DNA of 64,000 bases, from the NCBI RefSeq assembly GCF_029633865.1, contig NC_079212.1, positions 80,382,672 through 80,446,671 on the forward strand, in the 5' to 3' direction. Numbering within the stretch: the first letter of the stretch is position 1; each line of letters opens with the position of its first letter. The DNA comes from Lampris incognitus (lineage: Eukaryota; Chordata; Actinopteri; Lampriformes; Lampridae). The position numbers were made by a program, and so were the translations under genes. Shown one piece after another: positions 282 through 54,007 of the stretch. Below the pieces are notes generated by a model that was not told the DNA's origin, made no database searches, and saw only the letters and a list, made by a program, of their open reading frames with translations.

Positions 282-3200
282 CTACTCATAGTCCTTGTAG
301 TGAGCTGGTTTGGAAACAGCTCTTCCATATCTTGTGCGTACTGTCTTGTGTGTTTCACAGGTTTGGCTGGAAGAAGTTCCAGCTGCATGAGTGTCCCGTT
401 GAGGTTCTGTGAAGCGGGTTCTTGCGCTCCTCAGTGCATGGGGGTGGTGAATTTCCCGCAGGTGGCTCCTGCCACGTCTGAGTTTGTTCCCATTTGATGT
501 TTGCACAATGTAGCTCCTTGGCTCATCGCACTTTTGTACGACGGTGGCTGGATACCAAGTCCCTTTTTCCTTGTTTAGGACAGATACGTGCTGTCCGGGA
601 CTGAGTGGAGGTAGTTCTCTGCCGCTGCTGCGGTCATGATGTTCCTTCATGTTTGCTGTTCTCTGCTCCAGGTGGAGTCGGTTTTCCTCCTTGCCTGGGT
701 CCCCTCGACTCGGCAGCAGGGTGGTGACTGGCCTTCCGAAGATCAGTTCTGCTGGTGATGGTAGTTTACTGTCGATGGGTGTTGCTCTGACCTGTAGTAA
801 GGCCCCTTTTATGTTACCTCCTTGTCTCATGGTTTTCTTCACAATGGATTTGATGTGTCGCACATGCCTCTCAATGAATCCATTGCTTTTTGGATAGTGG
901 GGTGAGCTTGTCACGTGCCTGATTCCCCAGTCAGCCGTGAATTTCTGGAACGCGTGCCCTGTGTACTGGGGTCCATTATCTGTAAGTATCTCATCAGGCC
1001 TTCCAAAAAGAGACATGTACATTTCCATTTTTTGTGCAACTGCCCGGCTGGACACAGGCATGGGCATTTCATCCACTAGAGGGAACTTAGAATATCTGTC
1101 CACAATCAGTAAATACTGATGTCCATCGATCTCGAATAGATCAGAAGCTAGGGATTGCCATGGTTTTGACAGTGTGTTGTGTGGGTTGAGAGGTTGCTTT
1201 GGATTTGCATCCTGATGTTCCACGTATACGCTACATGACCTGCAGACTCTTTCGATGTCATCGTTCATTCTGATCCAGTAGACACTTTCTCTCGCCAGTC
1301 GCCGTGTCTTTTCGATGCCCTGGTGTCCTACATGCAGCTGTTCGAGTATAAAATCAGTCATGGAGTCTGGGATGAGCACCTGTCTGCCTTTGAATATGAC
1401 TCCTGCTTCAACTGCGAGCTCATCTCTGAATGACCAGTACTCACGTAGTTGTCTTGGTAGAGCTTTGATGTTGTCTGGCCATCCCTGGTGGATCAGCTCT
1501 TTCAGTGCATTGAGTCTGGGGTCGCTGGTGGTTTCCGTGTGGAGTGCGTCCTGTTTCTCGGGAGAGAAGTTTATCATTGCAACAGTGAGCATCTCTGGAT
1601 CCTCGACTTCTGCCTCTATTCCGTCAATGCGCTCGTCCAGCTCGATGTTTCTGTTGTTCTCAGGGTTGGGTAGTCGGCTGAGTGTGTCTGCCAGGACCAT
1701 CTGGTTTCCTGGTCGATACGTGACCTCGTAGTTGTATCCTTGTGTTTTTATCAGCATTCGCTGAAGCCGTGGCGGGGCGGCATGCAGTGGCTTTGTGCAT
1801 ATGGTAACGAGGGGTTTGTGGTCTGTAACTACAATGAATGACTTCCCATACAGGTAGGTATGGTATCGCTGCATTCCATAGACTATGGCCAGCATTTCTC
1901 GCTCTATGTTGCTGTACCTGGATTGGCAGTCGTCCAGTGTCTTTGAGCCAAAAGCTATGGGTCTTTTGTTGTGCACTAATGCCACGCCCAGTCCTTTCTC
2001 TGATGCATCGACCTCAAGTGTCAGAGGTGTGCTTGGATCATAGTACTTCAGGCAGTCATGTTCGTTGATAACTGATTTCAGGTCCTCAAAGCTCTTTTGG
2101 TGGTCAGTGTCCCATGTCCAAGGCACGTCACTTTTCAGCAGCACCCTCAGTGTGTGTGCTTTGTCTGTGAACTTTGGGATGTAGGGTGACAGGTAGGTCA
2201 GCATCCCCAAGAATCTGCTCAGTTCATCTTTGTTCTGGGGTGTCGGCATTTTCTGGATGTCCCTGATTTTGGCTGGGTCAGGTTTGATACCTTTGTCTGT
2301 GTACAGGTTGTCAAAGAATGAGATGCTTGTCTGTTTGATTGTGCACTTGTCACTGTTGAACACAATACCTGTCTTGGCTGCTCTCTCCATCAGGTTGGTC
2401 AGGTTCCTGTCATGCTCCTCTTCGCTTGCTCCGTAGACTGCGATATCATTGGCTATGCTGACGACACCGTCGAGCCCCTCCAGGATTTGGTCCATCTTTG
2501 CCTGGAAGAGATCTTGAGAGACACTGAGACCAAATGGCAAACGTTTCCAGCAGTATCTACCAAATGGAGTTCGGAATGTGGTTAGCAGTTGTGACTCTTC
2601 CTCTAGGTGTATTGACCAATATCCAGCTTTTGTGTCAAGTTTGCTGAATATTTTTGCATTTGCAAACTTCGGGTTCAGTTCCTCCCCAGTAGGAATCTTG
2701 TGTGGGCATCTCCTAAGGCTGGCATTAAGCTTTTGGGGGTCTAAGCATATGCGAAGGGAACCGTCTTTCTTTGTGCTGTATGCCAGACTCGAGCACCAGT
2801 CTGTGTGCTGTTCTACTTTTCTTAACACATCTTGTTCGACTAGGTTATTCAGTTCATCTTTCAGTTTGTCTTTGATGTGAATGCTGCACTTACGTGGTGG
2901 GTCTATGAATGGTTCAGCATCCTTTTTCAGGAAGAGCTTGGCCTTTCCACTGAAGTTGCCAATTTTGTCAAACTGGTCTGGGTATGCTCTCTTTAGGTCT
3001 GCACTGTTAGATATGGTCATTTTGAGTTTTGTCTGTCTTGTGTTGACTTTTTTCTGGTTTGCATGTCCTTTCTCGGTCACTGCATCTACATTGACAGTCA
3101 CTAGGTTTAACAGTTCACATGTTGGCAGCCCAACTATGGCTGGCCCTGGTACGTCTACAACATAGAACTTTGCATTGATCCATTTGGATTCTTTGTACTG

Positions 3201-3821
3201 GCATGGAATGTCAATGGTGCCTAGGCAGGGGATGGCGTGACCACTGTATGCAGATAGCCTCCTGTTGGTTTTTTTCAGTCGTTTCTGGGTGCATGCATTT
3301 TCACCGTACATCTGCTTGAAGGTACACAATGGGAGTGTGTTGCCTGACGCACCTGTGTCTATCTTCAGACGTAGTGTGTATCCACGACCAGGTAGGGCAG
3401 GTGGTGTCACCTTCAGGACTGTGTACTCCTCCTCTCTGGCCGGCTTGCTGTCTATGCTATGCATGCACTTTTCACTGATAGTTATGGAGTGGAACTGTTT
3501 CTGGTAAGTACTTTCGTTCTCACTGTCTGTTTCACTGCTACTCTCTACAGCATGTATGCGAGTCCTGCTCTGTTGCTTTTTGTCTATATAGGTTTTGCGC
3601 TTGTGCTGTTTGTCTTGTGGTGTGTGGGACTTACTTCCCCCGCTCCTGCTCTGGCTGGAGTGTTCCTGGCACTCTCGTTTAGCCTTCCTGCAACACCGCT
3701 CCCAGTGAAGTACCACCACACGCATTGCATTCATCATCATATGCAGGACATCGACGTGGTTTGTGGCTTCTCCCACAGTTACGACATATGCGGTCCCTGT
3801 CCACAGCGTGGATTCTCTCAT
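282..3821 (-). CDS. Gypsy Pol polyprotein (protease-RT-RNase H-integrase)
   Basis: An open frame of 1,179 codons. An aspartic protease (IDTGASGN) lies at about residue 153. RT follows at about 320-500, RNase H at about 560-700 (EVDASEKG) and integrase at about 860-1080. Integrase has an HH-CC zinc region (HVGH, CRSC) and the D-D-E core seen in SDLFEID, TDNGPQY and NGFIERH. The RT catalytic box reads IANDIAVYG, where Gypsy elements have two adjacent aspartates (xADDxxxYG). The first is asparagine here, which should abolish polymerisation. The first roughly 35 residues are probably not native: the frame is entered from gag, and HWERCC near the start is the second half of gag's second zinc knuckle. 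Confidence 0.92.
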   Translation of the reverse strand: MRESTLWTGTAYVVTVGEATNHVDVLHMMMNAMRVVVLHWERCCRKAKRECQEHSSQSRSGGSKSHTPQDKQHKRKTYIDKKQQSRTRIHAVESSSETDSENESTYQKQFHSITISEKCMHSIDSKPAREEEYTVLKVTPPALPGRGYTLRLKIDTGASGNTLPLCTFKQMYGENACTQKRLKKTNRRLSAYSGHAIPCLGTIDIPCQYKESKWINAKFYVVDVPGPAIVGLPTCELLNLVTVNVDAVTEKGHANQKKVNTRQTKLKMTISNSADLKRAYPDQFDKIGNFSGKAKLFLKKDAEPFIDPPRKCSIHIKDKLKDELNNLVEQDVLRKVEQHTDWCSSLAYSTKKDGSLRICLDPQKLNASLRRCPHKIPTGEELNPKFANAKIFSKLDTKAGYWSIHLEEESQLLTTFRTPFGRYCWKRLPFGLSVSQDLFQAKMDQILEGLDGVVSIANDIAVYGASEEEHDRNLTNLMERAAKTGIVFNSDKCTIKQTSISFFDNLYTDKGIKPDPAKIRDIQKMPTPQNKDELSRFLGMLTYLSPYIPKFTDKAHTLRVLLKSDVPWTWDTDHQKSFEDLKSVINEHDCLKYYDPSTPLTLEVDASEKGLGVALVHNKRPIAFGSKTLDDCQSRYSNIEREMLAIVYGMQRYHTYLYGKSFIVVTDHKPLVTICTKPLHAAPPRLQRMLIKTQGYNYEVTYRPGNQMVLADTLSRLPNPENNRNIELDERIDGIEAEVEDPEMLTVAMINFSPEKQDALHTETTSDPRLNALKELIHQGWPDNIKALPRQLREYWSFRDELAVEAGVIFKGRQVLIPDSMTDFILEQLHVGHQGIEKTRRLARESVYWIRMNDDIERVCRSCSVYVEHQDANPKQPLNPHNTLSKPWQSLASDLFEIDGHQYLLIVDRYSKFPLVDEMPMPVSSRAVAQKMEMYMSLFGRPDEILTDNGPQYTGHAFQKFTADWGIRHVTSSPHYPKSNGFIERHVRHIKSIVKKTMRQGGNIKGALLQVRATPIDSKLPSPAELIFGRPVTTLLPSRGDPGKEENRLHLEQRTANMKEHHDRSSGRELPPLSPGQHVSVLNKEKGTWYPATVVQKCDEPRSYIVQTSNGNKLRRGRSHLREIHHPHALRSARTRFTEPQRDTHAAGTSSSQTCETHKTVRTRYGRAVSKPAHYKDYE

Positions 3822-4296
3822 TGTGTGACAGGCTAAGTTTGTCTAACTGTTCATTGCCTGCTGTCAGGGCTTCATATTTTCGTCCCTCGGCCAGAACCTC
3901 TGCTAAGGAATATCCTTTTGGTTTGCTGTATAGATCATTCCTCAGGGCATCATGGGGAGTGCTCGCAATAATAAGCTCAATCATACGCTCGTTAAGCTCT
4001 TCGTCTGAAAACTGACATTTCCGTGCTAGTGTTCTGGCTCTGGTCACAAAATCATCAATATTCTCATCTGGTTTCTGTCTGTGTTGCATCAGTTGCAGTC
4101 TATGGATTCTGAAATTTACGTTCAACTTTAGCTGTTTTTCAAAGAAGTCCCATAGTTTGGCAGGCTTTTTCTTTTCATCATCGGTGAGACCAATGGCGTT
4201 CAGTCTTTTTAATCCTTCATCTCCGATTCCACGACATATTTTCCTAGCTTGTTTAGCTGCGCCATTTATTTCTTCATCTTCTAAATACAGAGTCAT
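3679..4296 (-). CDS. Gypsy Gag (capsid and first zinc knuckle)
   Basis: A 205-codon frame beginning with MTLYLEDEEI just after the leader. The middle is a Gypsy capsid-like helical region, with FVTRARTLARKC as its recognisable retrotransposon Gag stretch. The C-terminus has one complete CCHC knuckle (CRNCGRSHKPRRC) and the first two cysteines of a second (CNAC). The reading then leaves the knuckle and stops. The remaining His and Cys residues are found in the overlapping pol frame, so gag and pol are joined either by programmed frameshifting or by a decayed frame near 3700-3720. Confidence 0.85.
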   Translation of the reverse strand: MTLYLEDEEINGAAKQARKICRGIGDEGLKRLNAIGLTDDEKKKPAKLWDFFEKQLKLNVNFRIHRLQLMQHRQKPDENIDDFVTRARTLARKCQFSDEELNERMIELIIASTPHDALRNDLYSKPKGYSLAEVLAEGRKYEALTAGNEQLDKLSLSHNERIHAVDRDRICRNCGRSHKPRRCPAYDDECNACGGTSLGAVLQEG

Positions 4297-4505
4297 TTTC
4301 TATTTATACAGTGAAATTGCCTCACCCAGGTCCGGGTCTGACCAATTCATCGTCGGTAGATGCGATGCCATGACGTCTCCTGTTACTAGCTAGCTAGTTA
4401 GCTTTGCGGCTAGCTAAGCTCCGGCGCACTCTTGCTTGAATGATGACAGAAATTATCCACGGACAATTTTATCAGTCTATCTTCATTCTTCATAGAGAGT
4501 ACTTT

Positions 4506-10529: not shown

Positions 10530-10990
10530 GCCTCGGGGTTCGGACTTTGTTTTGTGACTTAAACACAGAGGGCACAAAACCAGGATTCTGTGAGTCCAGT
10601 GACGCCTGACCTGTCACTAGCCAGACACACCACATTAGCCAGATAATAGCGGCTCTAACGCTGCGTATCGGTTACTGGAGATACTAGTCTGCATCTAAAC
10701 CAGGCATGCTGGTGACACCACAGAGCAGGTAGATAACTTACCTGAGAGAACAAGGACGCTGCACACGCCAGCATCTGGATCGGGTCCTCAGACCGGTTCT
10801 CATCAATACGTTTGATGGCTTGCAGCCACAGGGAGGCGCCTCCGGTGGCTCTGAAATGGCCGCCGTGATCCCGTCGGGATTGGGTAAAGCTTCAGTCCGC
10901 TGTTGGTAGAGTAGCGACTCGTACAGCCAAACACACAACACCCGCACATTGTGATGCTGCTTATACTTCTGCATAAACTCTGTCATCTCC
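10530..10990 (-). pseudogene. Two-exon THAP-domain relic
   Basis: On the minus strand, about 10741-10940 encodes CCVFGCTSRYSTNSGLKLYP, the start of a THAP zinc finger. A frameshift leads to LWLQAIKRIDENRSEDP and VCSVLVLSG, the place of the second zinc pair (C-x2-H in intact THAP domains; the histidine is lost here). A splice donor (G|GTAAGT) follows. A matching acceptor near 10617 leads to SQNPGFVPSVFKSQNK, the usual post-THAP linker. The phases agree. It is broken by at least one frameshift and stops. The Academ-like transposon at 10994 inserted immediately upstream of it. Confidence 0.65.
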
Positions 10991-10993
10991 TCT
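10991..10993 (+). repeat. Target-site duplication TCT (left)
   Basis: TCT immediately precedes the inverted repeat; the same three bases follow the right end at 17782-17784. Confidence 0.6.
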
Positions 10994-11573
10994 TAGTCCA
11001 TGGGCCAGAGCCCAAAATTTCCTATTTTGGTACACTCAAGGTGGCAAAACTTACTTATAATTTTTGAAAGGATCCATGTCTGTAGATGATATTTTGGTAT
11101 GATAACCATTCCTGAGTGGCAGCTGTATCACAGTTATCAGCTTATGAAGTTAACCACCCACTAAACTAAATTGCATTTTAGACGCTGGTGCATATCCTGG
11201 TTTAGCCTCATGGTCAGGACATTTTTCAATGTTATATAATATTGTCTTTGGTATCATTTTAAAGGGGACCTTCTTAGCTTTCATTCAAGCCCTGTTGTGG
11301 ATATTTCTCACAAATATAGAGGTCACTTGAGCTCTTCAACCCGTCAATAACACACATCTTTCTGCAATGTTCGCCTAAACTATATACTTTCTTTTAGCCC
11401 TGTGGCATCTAGGAATATCAGGGACACAAAACACAAAAACTGGAATACTCACAGGACTGTAAAGATTCAGGAAATGTATAATATACCCATACTATTTCAT
11501 TGTGTGAGGTGATTGTGAACCTTAAATTAGAAGGGCATTATTACTAAGAAACTAACTAGACCAAAGCCAGTTA
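10994..11573 (+). repeat. Left terminal inverted repeat
   Basis: About 580 bp matching, as reverse complement, 17231-17781. Examples are CATATCCTGGTTTAGCCTCA near 11192 and GGGGACCTTCTTAGCTTTCA near 11265. The left arm has about 25 extra bases near 11530-11555 that the right arm lacks. The repeat ends at ACTAGACCAAAGCCAGTTAG. Confidence 0.93.
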
Positions 11574-11720
11574 GTCCATGGGTCAGACCAGATATCGATA
11601 TCACCCAAGGTGACACAACTTCACTGGTGCCATTTTATTTGGTACACTAACAGAAGTAAAATAATACATGATAACCTTTCCAAATGAGCAGCTATTTCAT
11701 TTTTCTTTCAGGAAACCTGT
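11571..11720 (+). repeat. Diverged second copy of the transposon terminus
   Basis: Right after the inverted repeat comes TTAGTCCATGGGTCAGACC, nearly the element's own outer end. Weaker parallels to the outer terminus follow in the same order: TTTGGTACACT, then GATAACCTTTCC, then GAGCAGCT. I saw no matching copy at the inner edge of the right arm. Confidence 0.6.
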
Positions 11721-12251
11721 TTCTGTGCCTCTCATGATTGTGTATTTGCCCAGATTTTTACAAATATAGCATTTCAACACCCCTGGTACTGATTAGCCTA
11801 GCTTAAACTCTGGGACAGTTCTTAGTTGGCCAACAACCAAGGATAACCAGTACTGTGTACTTCCATTCATTGTGCTAAGCTAGGCTAACGTGCAGCCAGA
11901 TAGCTTTCTACTAAACACATATAGAGGAAACTGGTATCTATCTTCTTGTCTCACTCTGGAGAAGATTGTAAGCTAATTTCCCATAATGGTAGCATGTTCT
12001 TTTAATGTATATGTTAATGTGATTAGTTAAAGTGGCTACGAGGAACTTTCATCTTGTGTTGATTTTAGCGGCCTCATGTGGACAAAATACAGCTGTTGCA
12101 TAGCAACTAGGTAATGTATCTATTTGTGGCTATGTAAGATAAATAATGGTAATATGACGCTGGTGAAGCAAAGTAAACTTTGTTTTAGTAGTGTTCATAC
12201 ACCTAAGTTACATATATTTGTTTGTATGTGGCAGGTGAAAACTGACTGAAT

Positions 12252-15200
12252 ATGGCCACTGGTGAACAAGCAAGTTTTTACCCAATACCAAAGCGCCCAC
12301 GGGTGGAGTGCATTATCCACTGTTCTGATGATACAGATAAGCTGGTTTCACTACAAAGTGTCGACTCATGGAGAACTCTGCTCAGGGCAGCTCAGATACG
12401 AAATCATGCACCAGTTTTGAAACTGGCAAAAGACATTCCTGAGGGACAGATTCCAGCAATCTACTACCACAGAAAGTGTCGCAGTATCTTCACTATGAAG
12501 CAAATTCTTGATGGCCTCCTTGCAAAAGAAAAGAAAAGTTGTGTCTCTGCTGAAGAGAAACAATCTAAGAGAGTAGCTCGACATGCTCCAAGTACATCTA
12601 GGACTTATGATGCAGAGTGCATATTTTGTCAGAAAAACAGCAAATATTCCAAGAGACAGAATACGAGAGAAGTACTGGTGCAGTGTCGAGAACTGCGAGC
12701 TGATGCAAAGATCAGGAGTGCAGCCACAAAGAAAAGGGACAGCAGAATCCTTGCCATTGTGAGTAGAGACCTTGTAGCAGCTGAAGGGCAATACCACAGG
12801 TCATGCTATAGACTTTACACCAAAGAAGAGGTTTCCAAAGGAGAGGTTGCCAGCAATGAAGATGATGATGCTGCAGCCCAGTATGAAGCTGCTGTGAATA
12901 AGGCATACAATGAGCTGTTCCTCTTCATCAGGATGGAGCTTTTTGGCAATCCTCAAGTGATGACAATGACTGATCTCTCTTCTAGACTGGTAGCTTCAAT
13001 GAACTCCCAAGGCATTGCCCAAGTCAAGGAATCAACCAGGAAGCATATAAGGCGAAACCTGGAGAGTGAGTTTGCTGGAGCCTTGCAGATATTCACTGAT
13101 AAGAAAGGAAAATTCCTCCTCTATCCCGATAACTTGTCCATGAGGTAACTTGCCAAAGAAAATCAGTCTCTCAAAAGGGAGCTGCAGACCCTGAAAAGTG
13201 TCAGTGCACAAGATGTTATAGCCAAAGCAGCCATCAAATTGAGAGCAGACATTAAAAGTCAAGATGTTCCTCAAACCTGGCCGCCTGAAGTCAAACCAGA
13301 AGCAGAATGTCCTACCATTCCAGAGTCGCTCATTATCTTCCTGTACTCTCTACTCACAGGCTCAAATGATCCTGATCATGCATCCCAGAGAGTGCAGTGC
13401 CTTCTGCAGTCATTTGGCCATGACATAGTATATGCAGTGACATGTGGAAATACCAAGCCTTCCAAGCACATTGTTCTGCCATTCAGTGTCAAATCGTTGA
13501 CAGGAAATGTAGAGTTGATAAACATCCTCAACCGACTTGGTCACAGTGTGTCCTATTCACAGATGGAAGATATCAACACTGCCCTGTGTCTCCAGAAACT
13601 CTCATCATCAGGGAGTGGCATTGCCCTTCCAGCTAACATCCATCCTGGCATATTCACAACTTTAGCCTGGGACAATATCGACCGTCTTGAAGAAACTGTC
13701 AGTGGTGAGGGAACATCTCACAGAGTCAATGGGATTGCTGTGCAAGCAAAGCCAGTCAACCCACTTCCTGTCCAACCCATGCCCACTGTTCCCAAAACAA
13801 AGAAGAGAAGCATTGATGGACCCCCACCAATGTTACCAACTTACAATGCTGGACAACGGGTAGGGCCACCACAAAGCAAAAAGTCAGATGCTGATACTGC
13901 AGCCAATACTAAGCTTGCCAGAGAGAAAAACCTTCTTTGGGTCCTAGCATGCATGTCACAACAAGAAGAACAGTCAGTCAGCAGCTGGACAGGCTTCAAC
14001 ATCCTGACTCGAGGAGAGATGACGGTCATCCCCGACAATATAGGCTATCTGCCTACCATCAATGCTCCAGCGACACAAATGTCTACTGTCAACGAGGTGC
14101 TTAACCAGTCACTGAGCATCATGCAGTGCTTAGGCCTGAGGAAGATTGTCTGTGTCTTTGACCAAGCCCTGTATGCGAAGGCTGTCGAGATCACATGGAA
14201 ACACCATGACAAGTTCCATGATATCATCGTTAGGCTTGGGGTATTCCACACCATCTGCACACTGCTGGCAATAATAGGAAAGCGTTTCCAAGATGCTGGA
14301 CTCAAAGACCTCTGCATTGAGTCTGGCATGATTGCAGAAGGCTCAATTGCTGGTGTTATGGATGGCCGCAAGTACAACAAGGCAGTGCGACTACACAAGC
14401 TCCTGTATGAGGCTCTCATGCGACTGACCTTGAATGGTTTCCTGTCCTGGTTGGAAGAAACTCACAGGAATGACATGGTTCACCTGAATGAGACACTGAA
14501 GACCATTGACAGCCTTGGGAAAGAAGTCTCACAACATGCTTTGAAGGAGGTCCTCGAGAACAGCTCTTGTACACGCATCATGGATCTATTTGAAGTCTAC
14601 CGTGAGTTCCTTAGAGGTGGAAACGGCAGCCTCTCGAACTTCTGGATGTCCTATTTGGACATGGTTGAAATCTTGTTGGGGCTCATCCGAGCATCCAGAG
14701 AGGGAGACTGGATGCTACACTTGGCTAGCATTCGAGCAATGATCCCATGGTGCTTTGCTTATGACAGGATGAATTATGCACGCTACCTCCCCTACTACTA
14801 CGCCCAGATGTCTGAGCTGCCCATCACACACCCAGCTGTGTACACAGAATTCATGGAAGGAGGCTTCTCAGTCCAACTGGGCTCCACCAATCCCTTTGGC
14901 CGAATCCCTGTTGACCAAGCTATAGAAGAAACGGTGAACAAAGACACCCAAACAGCTGGAGGGACAAAGGGATTCAGCTTGAAGCCAGGAGCTGTGACCA
15001 AATATTATCTCACAGCTGAGTATAGAAGCATGTACCTCAGACAGCTGAGAGACCTGACAGGTCAAGGCAGGTGCAAATGGTCTCATCCAGATCTACAGAG
15101 TCCAAGGATCAAGAGAGATGAAGCAGATGTCCAGTCTCTCATGGACCTTATGGAGAATAACTGGCTCAATCCTATGTCCCCTGATGAGATTGATTTGGTT

Positions 15201-15713
15201 AGCCTCTCCACTGGCAACATGGCTCCACCTGATGTGACCATAGATCTCTTGAGAGCTCTTGAGAAAGGAGAAGAGGCCTACCAAGCATTCCAGCAAACAA
15301 GGTTAGATGCAGACCCACCACCTGTGAAATTCCACGACAAGATGACCAAGCAAAGTCTGAAAACATTCTCCAATGTCAGCACAAAACAAGCTCATGGAAA
15401 GAAAGCACAGGATGTGGTTCTGAAGGCAGATAGAAACCTTTTCAGTCACATGATCCTGGTGGCTGAAAGCAGGAAGGTGAATCTGAAGGATGTCCTTGCA
15501 TACCCATTGGGCCCACTACCATGGGCACTGGCAAATGCTGATGGGTCCTTACGAAAAACAAACAAGGCTGCACTTGCCAGAGAGCTTGAAAAGAATGTAT
15601 CTCCTGCAGAAGACATCCCAATCCCATCTACTTCCATCATTGATGGGATGAGCCTGGTCCAAAAAATGAATGGCAACAACAAAACCTTTGCACAGGTGGC
15701 AGAGTCAGCCTGA
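12252..15713 (+). CDS. Academ-like transposon protein, N-terminal and middle part
   Basis: One frame runs from ATG 12252 to 15713, broken only by TAA at 13146-13148; the sense frame resumes at once with coiled-coil-like LAKENQSLKRELQ. N-terminal residues form two zinc-finger-like units, C-x3-C...H-x3-C (CIIHC to YHRKC, about 17-77) and C-x2-C...H-x3-C (CIFCQ to YHRSC, about 120-185). The large middle has conserved-looking blocks such as AWDNIDRLEET and SGEGTSHRVNGIAVQ (about residues 475-500). These recur, as I recall, in many uncharacterised fish and invertebrate proteins. The stop could be mistaken for a splice donor (AG|GTAACT), but the sequence after it remains protein-like, so a nonsense mutation is more likely. 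The frame is lost at 15711-15713, where a one-base shift leads into the C-terminal part. Confidence 0.85.
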
Positions 15714-16927
15714 TCCAGGTCCTCCATGAGGGAGCACAGAGTGGGAGGATTGATGTTGTTTTTGATGTCTATCACCAGACTTCGATCAAAGATGCTGAAC
15801 GACTGAACCGGGGTGGAGACATCACTCTCCAGTACAAGAATCTTGCAGGGGGACACCACGTCCAGCAGTGGAGAAAATTTCTGTGCAGTTCCTCCAACAA
15901 GACCAGTCTCATCAAGTTTCTGGTGGAAGAGTGGAAACTCCCACGATACAGAGCTATGCTGCATGGCAAGGTGTTGTACATGACCTGTGAGGAAACCTGC
16001 TACAAGTTGACAGAAGATGGGTGTGAGGAAGCAGCAGAACTGCACTCCACACATGAAGAAGCTGACACCCGTCTGCTCCTGCATGCATTGCATGCAGCAA
16101 ATGCGGGCTCAAAGTCAGTTATCATCACAGCTGAGGACACTGATGTCATGGTGCTTTGTCTTGGCTTCCAGAAGGACATCACCTGTCCCATCTACCAGAA
16201 GTGTGGGACTCAGAACCGCACACGGTTTGTCGACATCACCAAACTGGCAAGTTCACTTGGAGACAGCATCTGTGACAGCCAAATTGGCTTACATGCCTTC
16301 ACAGGCTGCGACACTGTCAGTGCATTCGCTGGTCGAGGGAAGCTGAATGCCCTGAAGATAGTGAGAAAGCACACTTCCTGCCAAGAGACTTTTAGTCAGC
16401 TGGGACAGACATGGAATGTGAGTGATGAGCTGTTCCAGAAAATTGAGCAGTTCACCTGTCGGATGTATGTTGCTAATAGCAGCACTGCTGAGGTGAACAA
16501 ACTGCCTTACCAGCTCTTCTGCACCAAAAGGGGAGAGGTTGAGTCCAGCCAGCTGCCACCATGTAGAGACTGTCTCTTTATGCATGTTCAACGAGCCAAC
16601 TATCAGGCAGCAATATGGAAGTGCTGTCTGCAGGCTAACCCTGTGGTGCCAAGCCCTACTGAGTATGGATGGACAGACGATGAAGGCAAGCTGGCCATTT
16701 ACTGGATGCGCTCCCCACCTGCACCAGATGTGGTCTTGAAAATGCTAACATGCAAGTGTGTGCATTCATGCAAAATGCCAAGCTGCATGTGCCTGTCAAA
16801 TGGACTTCCATGCACAGACATGTGCAGGTTACAGACCTGCAGTATCCAAAAACAGCAGGATGGTCCAGAACTGGACTTTGAACTTGGGGAGTCAGATGAT
16901 GAGGGAAACGAGCAGTTTGATGAATGA
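15710..16927 (+). CDS. Academ-like transposon protein, C-terminal nuclease-like and Cys8 part
   Basis: A continuous frame from CTG at 15710 (one base back from the upstream frame's stop) to TGA at 16927. Acidic motifs are spaced as in PIN/FEN/XPG-type nucleases: HEEADTRLLLH near 16049, AEDTDVMVL near 16130 and AFTGCDTVSAF near 16295. The C-terminus carries an eight-cysteine motif at about 16750-16845, CKCVHSCKMPSCMC then GLPCTDMCRLQTC. An acidic tail (ELGESDDEGNEQFDE) ends the protein. It is the direct continuation of the upstream coding region; one frameshift separates them. The nuclease assignment is inferred from motif pattern only, and the catalytic transposase domain cannot be pinpointed by eye. 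Confidence 0.82.
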   Translation: MIQVLHEGAQSGRIDVVFDVYHQTSIKDAERLNRGGDITLQYKNLAGGHHVQQWRKFLCSSSNKTSLIKFLVEEWKLPRYRAMLHGKVLYMTCEETCYKLTEDGCEEAAELHSTHEEADTRLLLHALHAANAGSKSVIITAEDTDVMVLCLGFQKDITCPIYQKCGTQNRTRFVDITKLASSLGDSICDSQIGLHAFTGCDTVSAFAGRGKLNALKIVRKHTSCQETFSQLGQTWNVSDELFQKIEQFTCRMYVANSSTAEVNKLPYQLFCTKRGEVESSQLPPCRDCLFMHVQRANYQAAIWKCCLQANPVVPSPTEYGWTDDEGKLAIYWMRSPPAPDVVLKMLTCKCVHSCKMPSCMCLSNGLPCTDMCRLQTCSIQKQQDGPELDFELGESDDEGNEQFDE

Positions 16928-17230
16928 CAGTGTGATGATTCTGATGGTATTACTGTGGTAGTAGTCTATTGATGCACAGGATGTTGATTCTGGACTTGGT
17001 TACCCAGAGCTTGATAACAATAATGTAACCATATTCACATATACCCATTACCCTACCCATTACCATTACATATACCCACTAATGATATGGGATTACATGT
17101 ATCATTGACTAAGTATATGTAAATGTCAATGTTGTTTAAAATATTAAAATAGTTCATTACCTCACTATGGTATTCCTTTTATCATGTATTTTGATTGTGT
17201 ATTTAAACAAATGTATAGAGACCAGTTTGT

Positions 17231-17781
17231 GACCTAACTGGCTTTGGTCTAGTTCTCATTTAAGGTTCACAATCACCTCACACAATGAAATAGTATGGGT
17301 ATATTATACATTTCCTGAATCTTTACAGTCCTGTGAGTATTCCAGTTTTTGTGTTTTGTGTCCCTGATATTCCTAGATGCCACAGGGCTAAAAGAAAGTA
17401 TATAGTTTAGGCGAACATTGCAGAAAGATGTGTGTTATTGACGGGTTGAAGAGCTCAAGTGACCTCTATATTTGTGAGAAATATCCACAACAGGGCTTGA
17501 ATGAAAGCTAAGAAGGTCCCCTTTAAAATGATACCAAAGACAATATTATAGAACATTGAAAAATGTCCTGACCATGAGGCTAAACCAGGATATGCACCAG
17601 CGTCTAAAATGCAATTTAGTTTAGCGGGTGGTTAACTTCATAAGCTGATAACTGTGATACAGCTGCCACTCAGGAATGGTTATCATACCAAAATATCATC
17701 TACAGACATGGATCCTTTCAAAAATTATAAGTAAGTTTTGCCACCTTGAGTGTACCGAAATATCGTCTGGCCCATGGACTA
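17231..17781 (-). repeat. Right terminal inverted repeat
   Basis: Reverse-complement copy of the left repeat, ending CTGGCCCATGGACTA. Differences from the left arm are scattered substitutions and the roughly 25-bp indel near the inner edge. Confidence 0.93.
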
Positions 17782-17784
17782 TCT
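17782..17784 (+). repeat. Target-site duplication TCT (right)
   Basis: Matches 10991-10993. Confidence 0.6.
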
Positions 17785-18134
17785 TCCTCATCTGAATCCC
17801 TGAATGAACGGGAGACTTGGGGGTAGCGTTTCACTTCCGTTGCCTAATTGCGCGCGCATACTTTTGATGACGTAGGCTGTAAAAGGTTGTATAGTGTAGC
17901 ATAATATCGTATAGTGCAGTGTAGTATAGTATACTCAAGCGCAGTACTTGACTAAATGTACATAGTTAGTTGTGAGATTTGAGGTTTTGTGCCAAAACAA
18001 CAACAACATATTAAGCAGTGAATTAATTGAAGTACAGTACAATTTTCGTTTCAGTAAATTTATTTGTAAAACCATCACAATAAAACCATATTTTTCATGT
18101 CTTTTCATGTCATTACTTTACTGACATTCCACAG
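17785..18134. other. No recognisable feature
   Basis: The continuation of the pre-insertion sequence left of 10994. It contains a TAGTGTAG/TATAGT-rich patch at about 17890-17935 but nothing else identifiable. Confidence 0.4.
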
Positions 18135-18627: not shown

Positions 18628-19422
18628 ATGGAAAACGCCGGTTCCGGTTCAGTGACAGGACGTGCTGGAAGTCGTGCCCATAACTCATGCAAGGTATCAC
18701 GGGGGCTAGGAATAAGGTGGCTACAACAGGACGCTGCTATACAACAGGATGCTGCTGTACAACAGGATGCTGCTATACAACAGGATGCTGCTACACAACA
18801 GGATGCTACTATACAACAGGATGCTGCTGTACAACAGGGTGCTGCTGTACAACAGGATGCTGCTATACAACAGGATGCTGCTATACAACAGGATGCTGCT
18901 GTACAACAGGATGCTGCTATACAACAGGATGCTGCTGTACAACAGGATGCTGCTATACAACAGGGTGCTGCTGTACAACAGGATGCTGCTATACAACAGG
19001 ATGCTGCTGTACAACAGGATGCTGCTGTACTACAGGATGCTGCTGTACTACAGGATGCTGCTATACAACAGGATGCTGCTATACAACAGGATGCTGCTGT
19101 ACAACAGGATGCTGCTGTACAACAGGATGCTGCTATACAACAGGGTGCTGCTATACAACAGGATGCTGCTATACAACAGGGTGCTGCTATACAACAGGAT
19201 GCTGCTATACAACAGGGTGCTGCTATACAACAGGATGCTGCTGTACAACAGGATGCTGCTGTACTACAGGATGCTGCTATACAACAGGATGCTGCTATAC
19301 AACAGGGTGCTGCTATACAACAGGATGCTGCTGTACAACAGGGAGCTGCTATACAACAGGGTGCTGCTGTACAACAGGATGCTGCTGTACAACAGGATGC
19401 TGCTATACAACAGGGTGGTTAA
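18628..19422 (+). CDS. Open frame made mostly of a six-residue repeat
   Basis: ATG at 18628 opens a 264-codon frame. About 32 non-repeat residues (MENAGSGSVTGRAGSR...) precede about 39 copies of QQDAA(I/V). All other forward frames are open too (CCYTTG and LLYNRM repeats), as expected from a stop-free unit whose length is a multiple of three. So openness is weak evidence for translation. No signal peptide or known domain is seen. Confidence 0.2.
   Translation: MENAGSGSVTGRAGSRAHNSCKVSRGLGIRWLQQDAAIQQDAAVQQDAAIQQDAATQQDATIQQDAAVQQGAAVQQDAAIQQDAAIQQDAAVQQDAAIQQDAAVQQDAAIQQGAAVQQDAAIQQDAAVQQDAAVLQDAAVLQDAAIQQDAAIQQDAAVQQDAAVQQDAAIQQGAAIQQDAAIQQGAAIQQDAAIQQGAAIQQDAAVQQDAAVLQDAAIQQDAAIQQGAAIQQDAAVQQGAAIQQGAAVQQDAAVQQDAAIQQGG
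18721..19421 (+). repeat. 18-bp minisatellite, about 39 copies
   Basis: The unit is CAGGATGCTGCTATACAA. The copies vary mainly at three sites: ATA/GTA, GAT/GGT and CAA/CTA. No unit-length changes are seen, so the array keeps the 18-bp register throughout. Confidence 0.97.
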
Positions 19423-28762: not shown

Positions 28763-29262
28763 TGAAGGAGACAGCCAGGAAGGTACTTGGTGTGTCATCA
28801 GGACAGAAGAAAGAAGACAAGGAGACTTGGTGGTGGAATGAGGAAGTTAAGTAGTGTATACAGAGGAAGAGGTTGGCAATAAATAAGTGGGATAGTCAGA
28901 GAGATGCAGAAAGTAGACAGGAGTACAAGGAGATGCAGTGTAAAGTGATGAGAGAAGTGGCAAAGGCAACGGAAAAGGCGTATGGTGAGTTGTATGAGAG
29001 GTTAGACACTAACGAAGGAGAAAAGGACTTGTACCGATTGGCTAGATAGAGGGACCGAGCTGGGAAGGATATGCAGGAGGTTAGGGCGATCAAGGAAAGA
29101 GATGGAAATGTGATGACAAGTGAGGAGAGTGTGTTGAGAAGGTGGAAGGAGTACTTTGAGGGGCTGATGAATGAAAAAAATGAGAGAGAGAAGGTTGGAT
29201 GATGCAGGGATAGTGAATCAGGAAATGCGGTGGATTAGCAAGGAGGAAATTAGGGCAGCTAT

Positions 29263-30670
29263 ATGAAGAGGATGAAGGGTGGAAAGGCAGTTGGTCCTGG
29301 TGACATACCTGTGGAGGCATGGAGATGTTTAGGAGAGATGGCAGTGGGGTTTTTAACTAGATTGTTTAACACAATCTTAGAAAGTAAGAGGATGCCTGAG
29401 GAGCGGAGAAGAAGCATACTGGTACCGATTTTCAAGAACAAGGGAGATGTGCAGAACTGTAGCAACTACAGAGGTATAAAGTTGATCAGCCACAGCATGA
29501 AGATATGGGAAAGAGTAATCGAAGCTAGGTTAAGAGGAGAGGTGATGATCAGCGAGCAGCAGTATGGTTTCATGCCACGAAAGAGCACCACCGATGTGAT
29601 GTTTGCTTTGAGAATGTTGATGGAGAACTATAGAGAAGGCCAGAAGGAGTTGCATTGTGTCTTTGTAGATTTAGAGAAAGCATACGACAGGGTGCCGAGA
29701 GAGGAGGTGTGGTATTGTATGAGGAAGTCAGGAGTTGCAGAGAAGTATGTAGGAGTGCTGCAGGATATGTATGAGGGAAGTGTGACAATGGTGAAGTGTG
29801 TGGTAGGAATGACAGATGGGTTCAAGGTAGAGGTGGGATTACATCAAGGATCGGCTCTGAGCCCTTTCTTGTTTGCAATGGTGATGGACAGGTTGACGGA
29901 CGAGATCAGGCAGGAGTCTCCGTGGACTATAATGTTTGCAGATGACATTGTGACCTGTAGTGAGAGTAGGGTGCAGGTTGAGGAGAGCCTGGAGAGGTGG
30001 AGGTATGCAAGTCAGTAGGAGCAAGACGGAATACCTATGCGTGAATGAGAGGGAGGACAATGGAATGGTGAGGAAGCAAGGAGTAGAGGTGACGAAGGCA
30101 TATGTCTTTAAATACTTGAGGTCAACTGTCCAAAGTAACAGGGACTGCAGAAGAGAGGTGAAGAAGAGAGTGCAGGCAGGGTGGAGTGGGTGGAGAAGAG
30201 TGTCAGGAGTGATGTGTGACAGAAGGGTACCAGCAAGAGTTAAAGGGAAGGTTTACAAGATGGTTGTGAGATCAGCTATGTTGTATGGTCTGGAGACAGT
30301 GGCACTGACGAAAAGACAAAAGGCAGAGCTGGAGGTGGCAGAGATGAAGATGCTAAGATTTTCATTGGGAGTGATGAAGAAGGACAGGATTAGGAACGAG
30401 TATATTAGAGGGACAGCTCAGGTTGGACGGTTTGGAGACAAAGCAAGAGAGACAAGATTGAGATGGTTTGGACATGTGTGGAGGAGAGGTGCTGGGTATA
30501 TTGGGAGAAGGATGCTGAATATGGAGCTGCCAGGGAAGAGGAGAAGAGGAAGGCCAAAGAGGAGGTTTATGGATGTGCTGAGGGAGGACATGCAGGTGGC
30601 TGGTGTGACAGAGGAAGATGCAGAGGACAGGAAGAGATGGAAATGGATGATCCACTGTGGTGCCCCCTAA
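29263..30670 (+). pseudogene. RTE reverse transcriptase and C-terminal domain, broken
   Basis: 29263-30018 holds the RT: KAVGPGDIPVEAWRCLGE, NYRGIKLISHSMKIWERV, EQQYGFMPRKSTTD, FVDLEKAYDRVPREEVWY, GLHQGSALSPFLFAMVMD and the intact catalytic MFADDIVTCSE. A frameshift near 30000 leads to 29960-30670 with SRSKTEYLCVNERE, LRWFGHVWRR and KRRRGRPKRRFMDV, the typical RTE C-terminus. This is the best-preserved LINE RT in the window. Confidence 0.88.
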
Positions 30671-34654: not shown

Positions 34655-35440
34655 GCGAATTCACATTTGCGGCGGCCTCACCCAGTACCGTCCATGCAGT
34701 GTCTTTGTCCACATCTAAGTTTTGTCTTCATTTGATGGCTGAGAGAGCTGGCGCTGGATCAGCAGGCTAAGCTAACTGCTAGCCCATGTAGACCGGCAGT
34801 TCAGATGACACTGAGAGCGGTCTGGCGGCGGCCTCACCTGGCGCTGACTGTGCTGTTTTTGATGTCGTCGTGAGGAGGGTCGAGGGTGTCTGGCTGAGAG
34901 AGCTGGCGCTGGATCAGCAGGCTAAGCTAACTGCTAGCCCATGTAGACCGGCAGTTCAGATGACACTGAGAGCGGTCTGGCGGCGGCTTCACCTGGCGTT
35001 GACTGTGCTGTTTTTGATGTCGTCGTGAGGAGGGTCGAGGGTGTCTGGCTGAGAGAGCTGGCGCTGGATCGGCTGGGAGAGTTTGGTCTGCTTCGTCCGG
35101 TGGGCCTGGGGACCACGACCCTTGCCTAGAGCTTCGCCCGAGGAGGAAACGCCAAGGGCGGTCTGACGGGACGCGGAAAAGTGGGGTGGGCTAAACGAAC
35201 CGCTAGATCATGCAGACCGGCGGTTCCGACAGTCATCCTGGCTGGCGTTCATTCCCTCGGACGGTGTTTGTTTTGTTTAGTTTGGATATATGTGTTAGTT
35301 TGGGTATGTGTGTTCTTGTAGTTTTTGGCTGTGTTTTTGTCTTTGTGTTGTGCTGCTGTGGGCTGGGGGAAACGGCATTTCCTTTCATTTCATGTAGCAA
35401 GTGCATGAAGTGAAATGACAAAGTGTTCCTGATTCCTGAT
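34655..35440 (+). mobile_element. Probable internally deleted LINE (5' monomers joined to 3' tail)
   Basis: The 155-bp units look like LINE promoter monomers. They are followed by a TTTAGTTTGG/TGTGTTAG-rich stretch and an end TGAAATGACAAAGTGTTCCTG reminiscent of fish LINE 3' ends. No coding region lies between. Confidence 0.4.
34738..35070 (+). repeat. 155-bp tandem repeat, just over two copies
   Basis: GCTGAGAGAGCTGGCGCTGG recurs at 34738, 34893 and 35048, exactly 155 bp apart. The first two copies are nearly identical throughout (TAACTGCTAGCCCATGTAGA and so on). Confidence 0.95.
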
Positions 35441-43000: not shown

Positions 43001-44809
43001 TTTTTTATCTATGCTTTTGATTTTGTAGTAGAGTTTATGCAATTTGAACATTTTTCAGCTTTTTGTTCAATAAAGCATTTTATCCTAAATAAATTCCTGC
43101 ATTTACTTTTCTTTTTTTTTTTTACTGTACAAAGAGTTGTTTGTGTACATTAGTAAAACAGACTTGTGAAGTTTGGAGCATGCCCACAACTCTCCTGGGT
43201 TTACTGATGTGACTAAGTGGGGCAAACATGACTGAACAAATGGGGTTTCTGACAAAAAAGATAAATGTATAGCATGTCAGTCACAAGACATGTTCTTGTC
43301 AAATGTTGAGTGTCTTTTCAGGATTGTTCAAGTCATATACATGTTGGAGAGGCTCCAAAGCTTTTGTTTCCCTGGAAACTGTCTCCTATTTTTAATATTT
43401 TCAAGGAAGTCAAGAAAAACATCAATTTAATCATGGACCAGTTCTTAACTAAATCAACCGACCCCAGCGATAGAGAGCATGTGGAGGTGTGCTGGTAATG
43501 GTCAAATTTGGGAAAATCACTCTCCCCATGTTTTGGTATTCTTACCTAGCATGTTTTAGTGTGGAGGTGTAAGCACACTTTCTTGCCACTTGCCGAGCCA
43601 AAGAAAAAAGCTCTACACGTCTCAGCAGAAGGGCATTGTCGCGTATACAGAACTGGGCAGCAGCTTCATTGATGATCAGCTGAGGGGAAGAGGTAGAAGA
43701 GAATAAAAGGAGACAATAAAAAAATGTCATGTATATTCTACCAAAAACGTAAAAGCGCTATTGGAATTATTGCAAAGCTCCACCCTAGTTTATAATATTA
43801 ACGTTCCCTTTTTCAATATACCATTGCCGTAAAGATGTGTTATTTAGTGAATAGCTTGGCTGTTGTTTTTCATCAGTCTGACTGATGATGCCTTTACCTC
43901 ATGGTGTGTGAGCTGCTTGCCTTCTCTCCGCTTGGAATCAAAGCGCCCATAAATGAGGCTGTACTTTCGGATTTCCTCTTCCTTGGTGGTGTCCTCAGAG
44001 CCCATTTTAAAGATATGACCAACCGCCTTTGCCATCTTTTTGTTAATCCTCAGCAGAGTCTTCACCTCTCCAGGATCTGACCGGGGAAGCGTCCTAAACA
44101 GCCTCGCCACACTTTCCCCTACCGCACGTGCTGTCTCCCTATCCAGTTGCCCTCCCGGCCAGGCTGAGTGTGCCACTGGATTAAAAGATGTGGAAGAGCT
44201 TGGAGGTGTGGAAGGACCCAGTGAACATGTTGAAACCTGAGGCAGGTTTGACGGCTCCTCCTCCATGCCAGACACTGAGGCCAAAGTGCAGTTTCCATCC
44301 GGCTCAGGGCTTAGCCAGTGGGGATCCATGGGTGATAGTTTCTCCCTGTAGAGTGTGTCTGGGGGCTGTGGGGAAGCTTGGGAGCATGGGCTCCTTGGAC
44401 TTCCACTGTGCAAAGGGGTGAGACATGCCCTGTCCTCTCTTTCACATGGAGACCCAGGCTGGCCGTTGCTCACAGATTTCCTGGGCCCTCCTGCTGATCC
44501 ACTTGTACCTGTGCCATCAAATTTAAACAGGGGTATGCCTCCAAGAGGCATATTAGAGACAGGTTGATTAAAAAGTGCTGGGTTGGCTGCCCAATCACGG
44601 AGGGCCTTTTGCAGCCTACGCACATGCAGTGGCTTAGTGGCCATGCCAACTAGTGCCATGATCTCGAGGAATTCTTCTTCAGCTGCTTCACAGAGCTGCT
44701 GTACATCATCACCACCCTGCTGGATGAAGGTGTCGTAATAGGCCAGTAAATTAGCCCTCTGCAGCACACGATAAAGCTGCAACTCCCCAAGTGTGCGGGG
44801 CAAAGACAT
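36869..44809 (-). CDS. nab2: NGFI-A-binding protein 2 (EGR1-binding corepressor), five coding exons
   Basis: Nuclear corepressor that binds the R1 domain of EGR-family zinc-finger activators. The coding exons read on the minus strand as 43898-44809, 43546-43679, 37919-37973, 37335-37521 and 36869-37048. All have GT/AG borders and agreeing phases, giving 489 codons so far. NCD1 ([18 protein letters not shown] to [14 protein letters not shown]) is at about residues 3-75. NCD2 ([13 protein letters not shown] to LARQVA) is at about 240-335. The C-terminal block [18 protein letters not shown] followed by VSHDRVG favours NAB2 over NAB1. Human NAB2 has about 525 residues; the last exon, with the usual sumoylated lysine motif, was not found. 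Intron 3 (37974-43545) carries nested transposons. Confidence 0.93.
37335..37521 (-). CDS. nab2: nab2 exon 5 (serine-rich, internally repeated)
   Basis: Begins after ATATTTGTAG and ends CACAAG|GTAAAG. The C-terminal half, [15 protein letters not shown], aligns with EDSASLSGESLDG-type sequence of mammalian NAB2. The N-terminal half is three copies of SERTSS-L-VEE from a 36-bp tandem repeat, not known to me from other NAB2 proteins. Confidence 0.82.
37391..37507 (-). repeat. 36-bp tandem repeat inside the nab2 coding exon
   Basis: Three copies of a 36-bp unit (plus strand CTCCTCCACTCCGAGACATG and so on) with few differences. The unit length keeps the reading frame and adds twelve residues per copy. 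Confidence 0.93.
37919..37973 (-). CDS. nab2: nab2 exon 4 (short, KRVKHE)
   Basis: A 55-bp exon between TTTATACAG and GAG|GTCAG. It encodes about 18 residues ending [10 protein letters not shown], the position of the KK/KR-x-K-x-E stretch in NAB1 and NAB2. Its length (one more than a multiple of three) is exactly what the flanking exon phases require. The 5.6-kb intron upstream is filled by a LINE, a Tc1 element and a SINE. Confidence 0.75.
38785..39475 (-). pseudogene. LINE reverse transcriptase palm region, decayed
   Basis: Pieces: [13 protein letters not shown], then [51 protein letters not shown] and the catalytic region as [12 protein letters not shown]. Stops and frameshifts separate them. 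The order and motifs are those of CR1/L2/Jockey-group LINEs. Confidence 0.8.
39478..39700 (-). repeat. Tc1 left inverted repeat
   Basis: About 215 bp inverted copy of the right end, with outer CAGTGCATCC and inner TATTCACACCCTTTACTC. Confidence 0.9.
39694..40347 (-). pseudogene. Tc1 transposase, catalytic DD34E half
   Basis: Resumes with [12 protein letters not shown]. The first aspartate is in [13 protein letters not shown], the second in [10 protein letters not shown] (about 39970) and the glutamate region in [15 protein letters not shown] (KH where most relatives have EN or EH, so the final acidic residue may be lost). A single in-frame TGA at 40006-40008 interrupts it. The end AAKGASTKY is the normal C-terminus. 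Confidence 0.9.
40348..40738 (-). mobile_element. tRNA-derived SINE inside the Tc1 transposase
   Basis: Flanked by CTGTCATATGCCTTTT (40332-40347) and CTGTCATGTGCCTTTT (40739-40754). On the minus strand the head reads GTGGTGTAGCGGTCTAAGC (A box) and GGGGTTCGCGCCCCGG (B box). The 3' end is A-rich. Confidence 0.92.
40722..41123 (-). pseudogene. Tc1 transposase, N-terminal DNA-binding half
   Basis: Starts [15 protein letters not shown]. It carries two helix-turn-helix units ([18 protein letters not shown] and [16 protein letters not shown]) with a GRPAKLS linker typical of Tc1 paired-like domains. The frame runs to LLSKRHMT and then enters the SINE insertion. Confidence 0.92.
41300..41522 (+). 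repeat. Tc1 right inverted repeat
   Basis: Mirror of the left end, running GGGTATGAATACTTATG to CCGGATGCACTG. Confidence 0.9.
41944..42130. mobile_element. Repeat-element end with duplicated block
   Basis: GAATGTTCTCATTCATCCAG to AGAGGCTTCCTCAGTTCGTG looks like the end of a dispersed fish repeat. The last 20-bp block recurs at 42122-42142 after a short (TAGTC)n. Confidence 0.45.
42286..42790. repeat. 252-bp direct duplication, AT-rich
   Basis: TGCTCAGAATCATCTGAAATGC recurs at 42286 and 42538, followed in both copies by GAGAAAAGTGGTTTTTAGCC and CATATTTTGCATA. There is no coding sequence. It lies in nab2 intron 3. Confidence 0.85.
42791..43545. other. nab2 intron 3, no further feature
   Basis: AT-rich. 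A 62-codon plus-strand frame (43310-43498) has no recognised motif. Confidence 0.5.
43546..43679 (-). CDS. nab2: nab2 exon 3 (rest of NCD2)
   Basis: Preceded by TACCTCTTCCCCTCAG and followed by CTAG|GTAAGA. It encodes [19 protein letters not shown] and [11 protein letters not shown], a block almost unchanged across vertebrate NAB proteins and required for repression. Ends with two bases of a split codon. Confidence 0.94.
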
Positions 44810-44826
44810 GGCACAGGACTTGAGAG
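43898..44826 (-). CDS. nab2: nab2 exon 2 (start codon, NCD1, linker, start of NCD2)
   Basis: The acceptor CTTCTCTCCCAG places the exon start at 44826; ATG is at 44807-44809 and the donor GAG|GTAAAG ends the exon at 43898. It encodes 304 codons. NCD1 mediates binding to EGR proteins and self-association; the serine/proline-rich linker (about 95-215) is the least conserved part. The exon ends in phase 0 inside NCD2 after QLTHHE. Confidence 0.94.
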
Positions 44827-45049
44827 CTGGGAGAGAAGACAGTGCAAAAATTAACTTGATAGTGAGGCACGGTTAAATTCATACTTAAATTTTGAATGAT
44901 TATGCACAGAGACTGGCAAGTAATTTCCCCCTTCTTTGGAGCCACGTGTCCTGAGTCAGCTCTCTTTTCTGTTTTTCCCTTCCTTTGTCTATCTTGTGAA
45001 TTTTAATGTTCAAAAAAGATTAAAAATAGGTGGCTGGACTTCAAGAAAG

Positions 45050-45589: not shown

Positions 45590-46168
45590 GATATGTAGAG
45601 ATTATCTGGTAAATATGGAGGTTATCAGGTAAACATGGAGATTATCAGGTAAATAGCTATAGAGACTATCTGGTAAATATGGAGGTTATCAGGTAAACAT
45701 GGAGATTATCAGGTAAATAGCTATAGAGACTATCAGGTAAATATGGAGATTATCAGGTATATAGCTATAGCGACTATCAGGTAAATATGGAGACTATCAG
45801 GTAAATATAGAGATTATCAGGTAAATATTGAGATTATCAGGTAAACATGGAGATTATCAGGTAAATAGCTATAGAGACTATCAGGTAAATATGGAGATTA
45901 TCAGGTAAATAGCTATAGCGACTATCAGGTAAATATGGAGACTATCAGGTGAATATGGAGATTATCAGGTAAATATTGAGATTATCAGGTAAACATGCGG
46001 ATTATCAGGTATAGATGTTATCAGGTAAATATGGAGATTATCAGATAAATATGGAGATTATCAGGTAAATAACTATAGAGACTATCAGGTAAATATGGAG
46101 ATCATCTGGTAAATATAGAGATTATCAGGTAAAATCAGAATACTTTATTAAATGTGAGATTATCAGGT
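45590..46168. repeat. 20-bp minisatellite in nab2 intron 1
   Basis: About 27 copies of GGTAAATATGGAGATTATCA. A 24-bp variant, GGTAAATAGCTATAGAGACT plus atca, is interspersed at intervals, giving a higher-order pattern. Confidence 0.95.
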
Positions 46169-46192
46169 AAATAGAGAGCACAGAGCACTTAC

Positions 46193-52402: not shown

Positions 52403-52997
52403 TAGCGCAGTCGTAGGGGCGGTGTGGAGAGCGCCTCGGTCTTGCTGAAGGCAGCTGCAAGGTCATGATAATCCTCGGGCACGTTGGAGAGGTCTGGAGG
52501 AGGAGGCTCTGCCTTAGGAGCCCCAGGAGGATAGGAGGCGGAGCGGAGACAGTTCGCGTGGCACGCAACACTCCACCCGATGATCCGAGCGGAGGACCAG
52601 GCGATGTTGGGGTCATGCCTCTGCAACCAAGGCCTCCCAAGAACCAGTGGTGAGGAGGGAGTAGTGAACACAAGGAGGCGGATTATCTCGACATGGTTGC
52701 CTGAGACAGTTAGCTTGAGAGGCTCAGTGGTGTAGGTGATGAGACAGAGAGCGCGTCCATCCAGCGAGCGGGTCTCAATAGGGGTCTCCAGCGGGGTGAG
52801 ACTGATGCCAGCCAGAGTCGATAAAGGCGCTGATAGGCAGAGACTGCTGACCCCAGGCAAGAGACGCAGGGAATAAAGGAGATGGGGAAGGCTTGTTCTG
52901 GGGCAGAGTCATGCAGCTTACTAGTAGCCCCTCCCCTAGTAAGCTCGGCTTTTTGGGCGTGTGGTACAGTCCCAAATGAAGTGTCCGGCCTGCCCAC
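52399..52997 (-). pseudogene. Sushi-like protease region
   Basis: PISAFIDSG is the protease active-site region (D-S-G). A frame break follows, then EIIRLLVFTTPSSPLVLGRP with LGRPWL, the usual end of the Gypsy protease fold. Stops and shifts lie between the parts. Confidence 0.75.
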
Positions 52998-52999
52998 AA

Positions 53000-53991: not shown

Positions 53992-54007
53992 CGTGGCCAG
54001 ATTGTAC

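Follow-up and report, generated by a model that had tools for sequence, protein, structure and literature searches.

To our knowledge, Academ is a superfamily of DNA transposons without tested chemistry. Elements of its AcademX lineage carry an XPG nuclease and a Cys8 zinc finger. The lineage (Repbase; Kojima 2020) is described in an excerpt of PMC10045372, according to which AcademX elements produce target-site duplications of 3-4 bp and AcademH elements duplications of 9-10 bp, a difference tied there to a nuclease versus a helicase. Titles found in the open-licence literature, the longer result lists being viewed in part, included none describing an Academ transposase assay; nearest to activity data comes a single new insertion of Academ-1 observed in mutation-accumulation lines of Daphnia (PMC8594854, excerpt). 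In zebrafish, medaka and stickleback, Academ elements account for 0.01-0.02% of the genome (PMC4746887, excerpt). Here, we analysed a window of 64,000 nucleotides (the whole stretch of DNA under study; contig NC_079212.1, positions 80,382,672 to 80,446,671, assembly GCF_029633865.1) of the opah Lampris incognitus, in which a preliminary description made from the letters alone had noted an Academ-like transposon. We are highly confident that it is an autonomous cut-and-paste DNA transposon of the AcademX type, whose number in the opah genome has risen to approximately 1,200 over roughly the past few million years. This reading builds on directly observed ends, 3-bp duplications, empty sites, tip numbers, near-identity of the compared copies and one long protein; the assignment to AcademX follows from traits and from descriptions of that lineage.

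As delimited by its arms and flanks, the transposon occupies positions 10994-17781 of the plus strand (6,788 bp). It begins with TAGTCC and ends with GGACTA, and the triplet TCT is found immediately outside each end (10991-10993 and 17782-17784). The outer left arm (10994-11574, plus strand) was recognised by its near-identity to the right arm (17234-17781, minus strand) and is marked, in all 18 aligned copies, by a block at the tip and an insert of 23 bp. Between 10994-11532 and 17253-17781, 524 of 539 alignment columns are identical (97%), and 10 of the 15 differing columns are gap columns close to the tips. The gap-free arm core of 510 bp is 99% complementary, while a further inner piece of 21 bp (11554-11574 and 17234-17254) matches at 100%. 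The inverted repeats of about 550 bp and the TCT on both sides, which the preliminary description had reported, were hence found as described, with arms 97-99% alike. Calling the element 'giant' was an overstatement, as its 6,788 bp compare with a mean of 5,565 bp for curated bivalve Academ elements (PMC10294476, excerpt).

Further copies were looked for in the opah assembly and found. The exact terminal 16-mer occurs 1,323 times in forward and 1,318 times in reverse orientation, compared to 0 and 0 for the reversed control, so that the element is not a product of chance. Genome-wide counts of 1,180 left-type and 1,150 right-type exact tips correspond to about 1,200 copies. A left-arm probe gave 72 candidates, 40 arms of which were scored, and a coding probe gave four scored copies; as common words were skipped in probing, the copies obtained with the left-arm probe were picked partly by rare words in the probe. 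Twenty left-end regions were fetched, yielding 17 full-length copies (6,768-6,792 bp), one internally deleted copy with both ends (L011) and two that were partial within the fetched stretch. The 100 tips listed on contig C1 between 13.6 and 41.1 Mb formed 44 pairs, with 12 tips unpaired, and 35 of the 44 pairs were full length at a spacing of 6.7-6.85 kb.

An exact 3-bp duplication flanks the element at 36 of 41 distinct sites, and the triplets differ between sites. The 41 sites comprise 18 two-ended copies (16 with exact duplication), the window copy (exact), 12 distinct further sites (11) and 10 tip-list copies (8). The 12 further sites remained from 17 that were tried, after four without one end in the fetched stretch and one duplicate site (n45) had been removed; the tip-list copies were taken in listed order with exact tips, excluding two pairs fetched earlier, one partly fetched pair and one pair spaced by 18 kb. 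Of the five sites without an exact duplication, two show duplications of 3 bp and 4 bp once an inversion is undone. They belong to L070 (C1:21891308-21898136) and L071 (C1:21920659-21927487), which lie in opposite orientation approximately 22 kb apart, have six private changes in common and lack duplications as they stand. With the inversion undone, their flanks read TAT/TAT and CATC/CATC, which suggests a chromosomal inversion through recombination between the two copies.

Empty sites were found as well. When the flanks of the window copy were joined with a single TCT and searched for (126 candidates), all 40 scored places matched, with 91-95% identity across the junction, and the three matches that were inspected run through the junction without a gap. 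The window element therefore sits inside one copy of a dispersed repeat, the other copies of which represent empty sites. The element moved as a unit. Its target (10738-10992 and 17782-18000) is a repeat with 126 candidate copies, of which the 40 scored are all empty at this position; with its flanks joined, it contains an open frame of 104 codons on the minus strand.

The copies are young. Mean divergence between copies is 0.74% among 18 copies and 0.71% among 10 further copies. Private substitution variants number 403 among the 18 copies and shared ones 19, and the private coding changes (69 silent, 203 replacement and 9 stop) agree with the expectation without selection (chi-square p = 0.62). 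Private change amounts to 0.33% per copy. Given substitution rates of 1-5e-9 a year, this places the burst at roughly 0.7-3.3 million years ago. A single frame of 1,555-1,568 codons is kept in 6 of the 17 full-length copies and in 0 of the 10 tip-list copies (6 of 27 overall, the internally deleted L011 having been left out), and judging by these frames some sister copies still look able to encode transposase. The window copy itself is dead, to judge from one stop and one frameshift. Recent mobility in the opah lineage, as suspected beforehand, is thus supported by copies about 0.7% apart, by their number of about 1,200 and by the frames that are still open.

Our first reading of the 18 copies as a purely star-like burst was dropped, because neighbours among the 10 further copies share private changes; local spread or conversion between copies also occurred. 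Four neighbouring copies (L072-L075, C1:23.80-24.68 Mb) have private variants in common, five being restricted to L072 and L073 and one present in all four, a possible sign of local jumping or of conversion among neighbours. Another copy, L012, is broken by about 1.2 kb of other DNA, on either side of which 6 bp of element sequence are repeated; this DNA probably inserted later.

The element contains one coding region of approximately 1,555 codons on the plus strand, to which the pieces and protein motifs described next belong. In the window copy it falls into stop-to-stop pieces of 300, 854 and 427 codons, the first two in the same frame and the third in another. Piece 1 (12252-13145), aligned to full-length relatives, is the N-terminal part of the transposase. 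It holds two zinc-finger-like units (12309-12497 and 12618-12824), the first recognised by comparison with the second, which has conserved Cys, Cys, His and Cys residues and resembles the first at 91% in hhalign, the two units compared having been selected by pattern. The stop at 13146-13148 is not shared by other copies tested, 27 of 27 of which read open across this site. Piece 2 (13149-15710) has 299 relatives, scored among the best 7,992 candidates by words in common, and a model together with fold comparison predicts an RNase H-like transposase core with a helical insertion. In structural comparison it matches DDE transposases and integrases best, with a weak fold score; neither Pfam nor Foldseek, the latter at E <= 0.001, gave a match to the core. 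Three residues invariant in an alignment of 53 rows are candidates for catalysis: D175 of piece 2 (13671-13673), at a strand end in the model, D338 (14160-14162), after a strand, and E593 (14925-14927), placed by the ranges matched to Hermes and integrases.

The first acidic residue of the XPG/FEN1-type site (15642-15644) lies in the motif IIDGM, which is conserved in relatives, and would be the equivalent of D34 of FEN1. Within 15644-15718 the frames of the window copy overlap, and the second lesion, a frame shift, lies in this stretch. Piece 3 (15719-16924; 518 relatives) holds the rest of the nuclease and the C terminus, including the conserved motifs EEAD (16055-16066), EDTD (16133-16144) and GCD (16304-16312), the last ahead of a conserved GRGK segment. 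As IIDGM, VVFDVY, EEAD, EDTD and GCD are kept in this order among relatives, the set of active-site acids appears complete, with a presumed correspondence to the numbering of FEN1. A modelled structure of the relative P0001, taken in place of the window protein, matches EXO1, FEN1 and XPG. Close to the C terminus, a Tesmin/TSO1 CXC-like motif of eight cysteines (16751-16840) was recognised from sequence; over 56 rows, each of its cysteine columns is either invariant or conserved to at least 90%, and 17 of 56 members scanned gave a weak match to the Pfam family TCR. Scans of 56 and of 14 members gave weak matches to DUF6589 in two members each; as far as we found, this family is not mentioned in the open-licence literature. 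A PHROGs search gave no match, sequence searches of the PDB gave nothing meaningful, and no relatives were confirmed among viral contigs or prokaryote genomes. The coding region of about 1,550 codons with two lesions and the motifs read from it beforehand (two zinc-finger-like units, HEEAD as part of a HEEADTR sequence, EDTDV, TGCD and the eight-cysteine run) are all present, the motifs being conserved among relatives.

Which family does this protein belong to? The earlier match to Academ is supported by the 3-bp duplication, the nuclease and the Cys8 motif, in a comparison with descriptions of Academ. The duplication seen at 36 of 41 sites falls within the 3-4 bp range of AcademX; the fold match of P0001 and the series of acidic motifs indicate a nuclease rather than a helicase; and the eight cysteines correspond to the Cys8 of the lineage. 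AcademX belongs to the DDD/E class, to which the opah core, with its three candidate residues and weak fold match, may or may not belong. The opah family differs from AcademX in its very high and recent copy number and in its stacked left end (see below). AcademH, of the same superfamily, was rejected because the duplications measure 3 bp and the Pfam scan of the coding pieces revealed no helicase family. Membership in hAT was likewise rejected, since that superfamily makes 8-bp duplications. The predicted RNase H-like core, with a helical insertion as in Hermes, resembles that hAT element and the retroviral integrases, but the 3-bp duplication, the fused nuclease and the weak fold score set it apart from Hermes. 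From the 5' nucleases EXO1, FEN1 and XPG (and Xrn1/Rat1), the opah nuclease differs by its fusion to a transposase, and it is approximately 9-15% identical to them in the compared rows.

It is conceivable that the element represents a separate, unnamed superfamily with only the 3-bp duplication and an XPG-type nuclease in common with AcademX, given that AcademX is known here by description and that the core lacks matches in Pfam and, at the above threshold, in Foldseek. We regard this as very unlikely: the Cys8 motif agrees with a trait of the Academ superfamily. Duplication length and nuclease further agree with the account of AcademX in the excerpt of PMC10045372, and the size of the element agrees with the curated Academ elements covered by the excerpt of PMC10294476.

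For the AcademX-type transposase we propose that the arms would be bound at both ends of the protein, by the zinc-finger-like units at the N terminus and the Cys8 motif at the C terminus. The predicted DDE core with the candidates D175, D338 and E593 may then cut the ends and join them across a 3-bp stagger, while the fused XPG/FEN1-type nuclease may trim either a 5' flap or the strand that is not transferred. As this vertebrate family is young, numbers about 1,200 copies with defined ends, and offers empty sites as well as several open frames, the role of a FEN1-like nuclease in a transposase can be tested in it directly. Youth, copy number, open frames and stacked ends add to the interest of the family.

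New here are a diverged older left end immediately inward of the left arm and a copy with four tandem left ends. Exactly where the left arm ends towards the interior, at 11572, the terminal motif recurs in the same orientation, with 82% identity to the outer end over 50 bp. The older end spans 11572-12238 on the plus strand, strong at 11572-11621 and weaker and gappy further in. The sequence following 11572 is colinear with the right arm, though with many gaps: of 718 alignment columns 458 are ungapped, and 346 of these match. The alignment reaches a score of 113, compared to a mean of 58.6 and a maximum of 90 for shuffles (n = 300) and a maximum of 71 for other stretches of the window (n = 72). 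The junction at this inner left end occurs 1,236 times genome-wide and is hence older than the burst. Since the outer left arm is nearly identical to the right arm while the inner stretch is diverged, the simplest reading of the sequence is that the latter represents the old left end, whereas the former is a newly gained duplicate of the right arm in inverted orientation. The second case, L076 (C1:64691500-64694400), has four left ends in tandem, in units of exactly 616 bp that each start at the terminal base; the first two units are identical, the next differs at five places, and the junction occurs three times, confined to this array. Both cases suggest that a cut left end was joined to element-internal DNA.

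Following this argumentation, we tentatively put forward 'end stacking', being ourselves somewhat doubtful of it: the Academ transposase would join cut ends singly into the DNA of a sister element. An ancestral left end would have been joined beside the inner edge of a right arm, capping the old end with the right arm in inverted copy, making the 550-bp arms in one step and leaving the old end behind as a relic inside the element across the family, with L076 as a second, independent case and conversion keeping the arms alike thereafter. Stacked ends would explain simply how long inverted repeats can form and, if the idea is true, may be a general origin of long-armed transposons. An account that might equally well be right or wrong is that repair, by template switching or by gap repair copying the right arm leftward, made both the arms and the internal old end, and that L076 is an ordinary tandem duplication. 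The arms do exchange sequence: of the eight alleles seen exactly twice among 30 copies, three occupy both arms of a single copy, where 1 in 59 would be expected for each allele (p = 0.0003), and one right arm bears a left-type tip. Overall left-right concordance of the arms was not significant (439 of 5,000 permutations reached the observed value), so that the claim of arm conversion rests on these private doubletons and that right arm. Repair would also fit the 3-base overlap (TAG) at the family-wide junction, possibly a microhomology, and the confinement of the L076 junction to one array. It is at odds with two observations: both junctions start exactly at the terminal base of the left end, and the L076 unit measures 616 bp instead of the 578-bp spacing predicted for crossing-over between two tip copies.

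But, where did the family come from? The comparison of named relatives covers the 120 listed among the 518 relatives of piece 3. The nearest named relative among these matches is LOC144944341 (P0002) of the river lamprey Lampetra fluviatilis, with 86% identity over 315 residues, although it covers only 74% of piece 3 and has several conserved residues altered. Other named fish elements are less similar (Eleginops 66%, Chaenocephalus 59%, Aldrovandia 55%). A quick tree built from 49 proteins places the window protein in one group with P0042 and that of L. fluviatilis (SH-aLRT 100), separate from the named elements of other fishes. Horizontal transfer of the element, with a lamprey relative, is plausible. 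Vertical descent within vertebrates, with the lamprey match due to slow change or thin sampling, seems to us possible but questionable. It could draw on there being one named lamprey protein among the 120 matches listed and on P0042 in the same tree group. However, the identity to the river lamprey exceeds that to the three teleost elements, and the conserved NAB2 (NGFI-A-binding protein 2) of the host is 70-87% identical to that of other named fishes (120 rows listed). Given that the copies have diverged by 0.7% and bear no mark of selection since they inserted, horizontal transfer is more probable than descent over some 500 million years. Lamprey-teleost transfers have been reported for Tc1 (PMC3516227, excerpt), to which the lamprey relative of the opah element may add a case.

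Elsewhere in the window, a NAB2 coding exon lies at 43844-44872 on the minus strand; over 95% of the query it shares 100% identity with NAB2 of Lampris incognitus, which identifies the host as that opah. Six-frame Pfam comparison revealed coding remains of retroelements at 282-4299, 51026-54384 and 57213-57983 (all minus strand) and at 29254-30018 (plus strand); two of these have matches to reverse transcriptase/RNase H and gag, the first also to integrase, and the others are a Pao-type peptidase piece and another reverse transcriptase. An 18-bp tandem array of 38.5 copies (18722-19414) has several frames open on both strands. A 155-bp tandem repeat with 2.2 copies at 98% is located at 34736-35070, and a complex array of approximately 20-bp units at 45596-46173.
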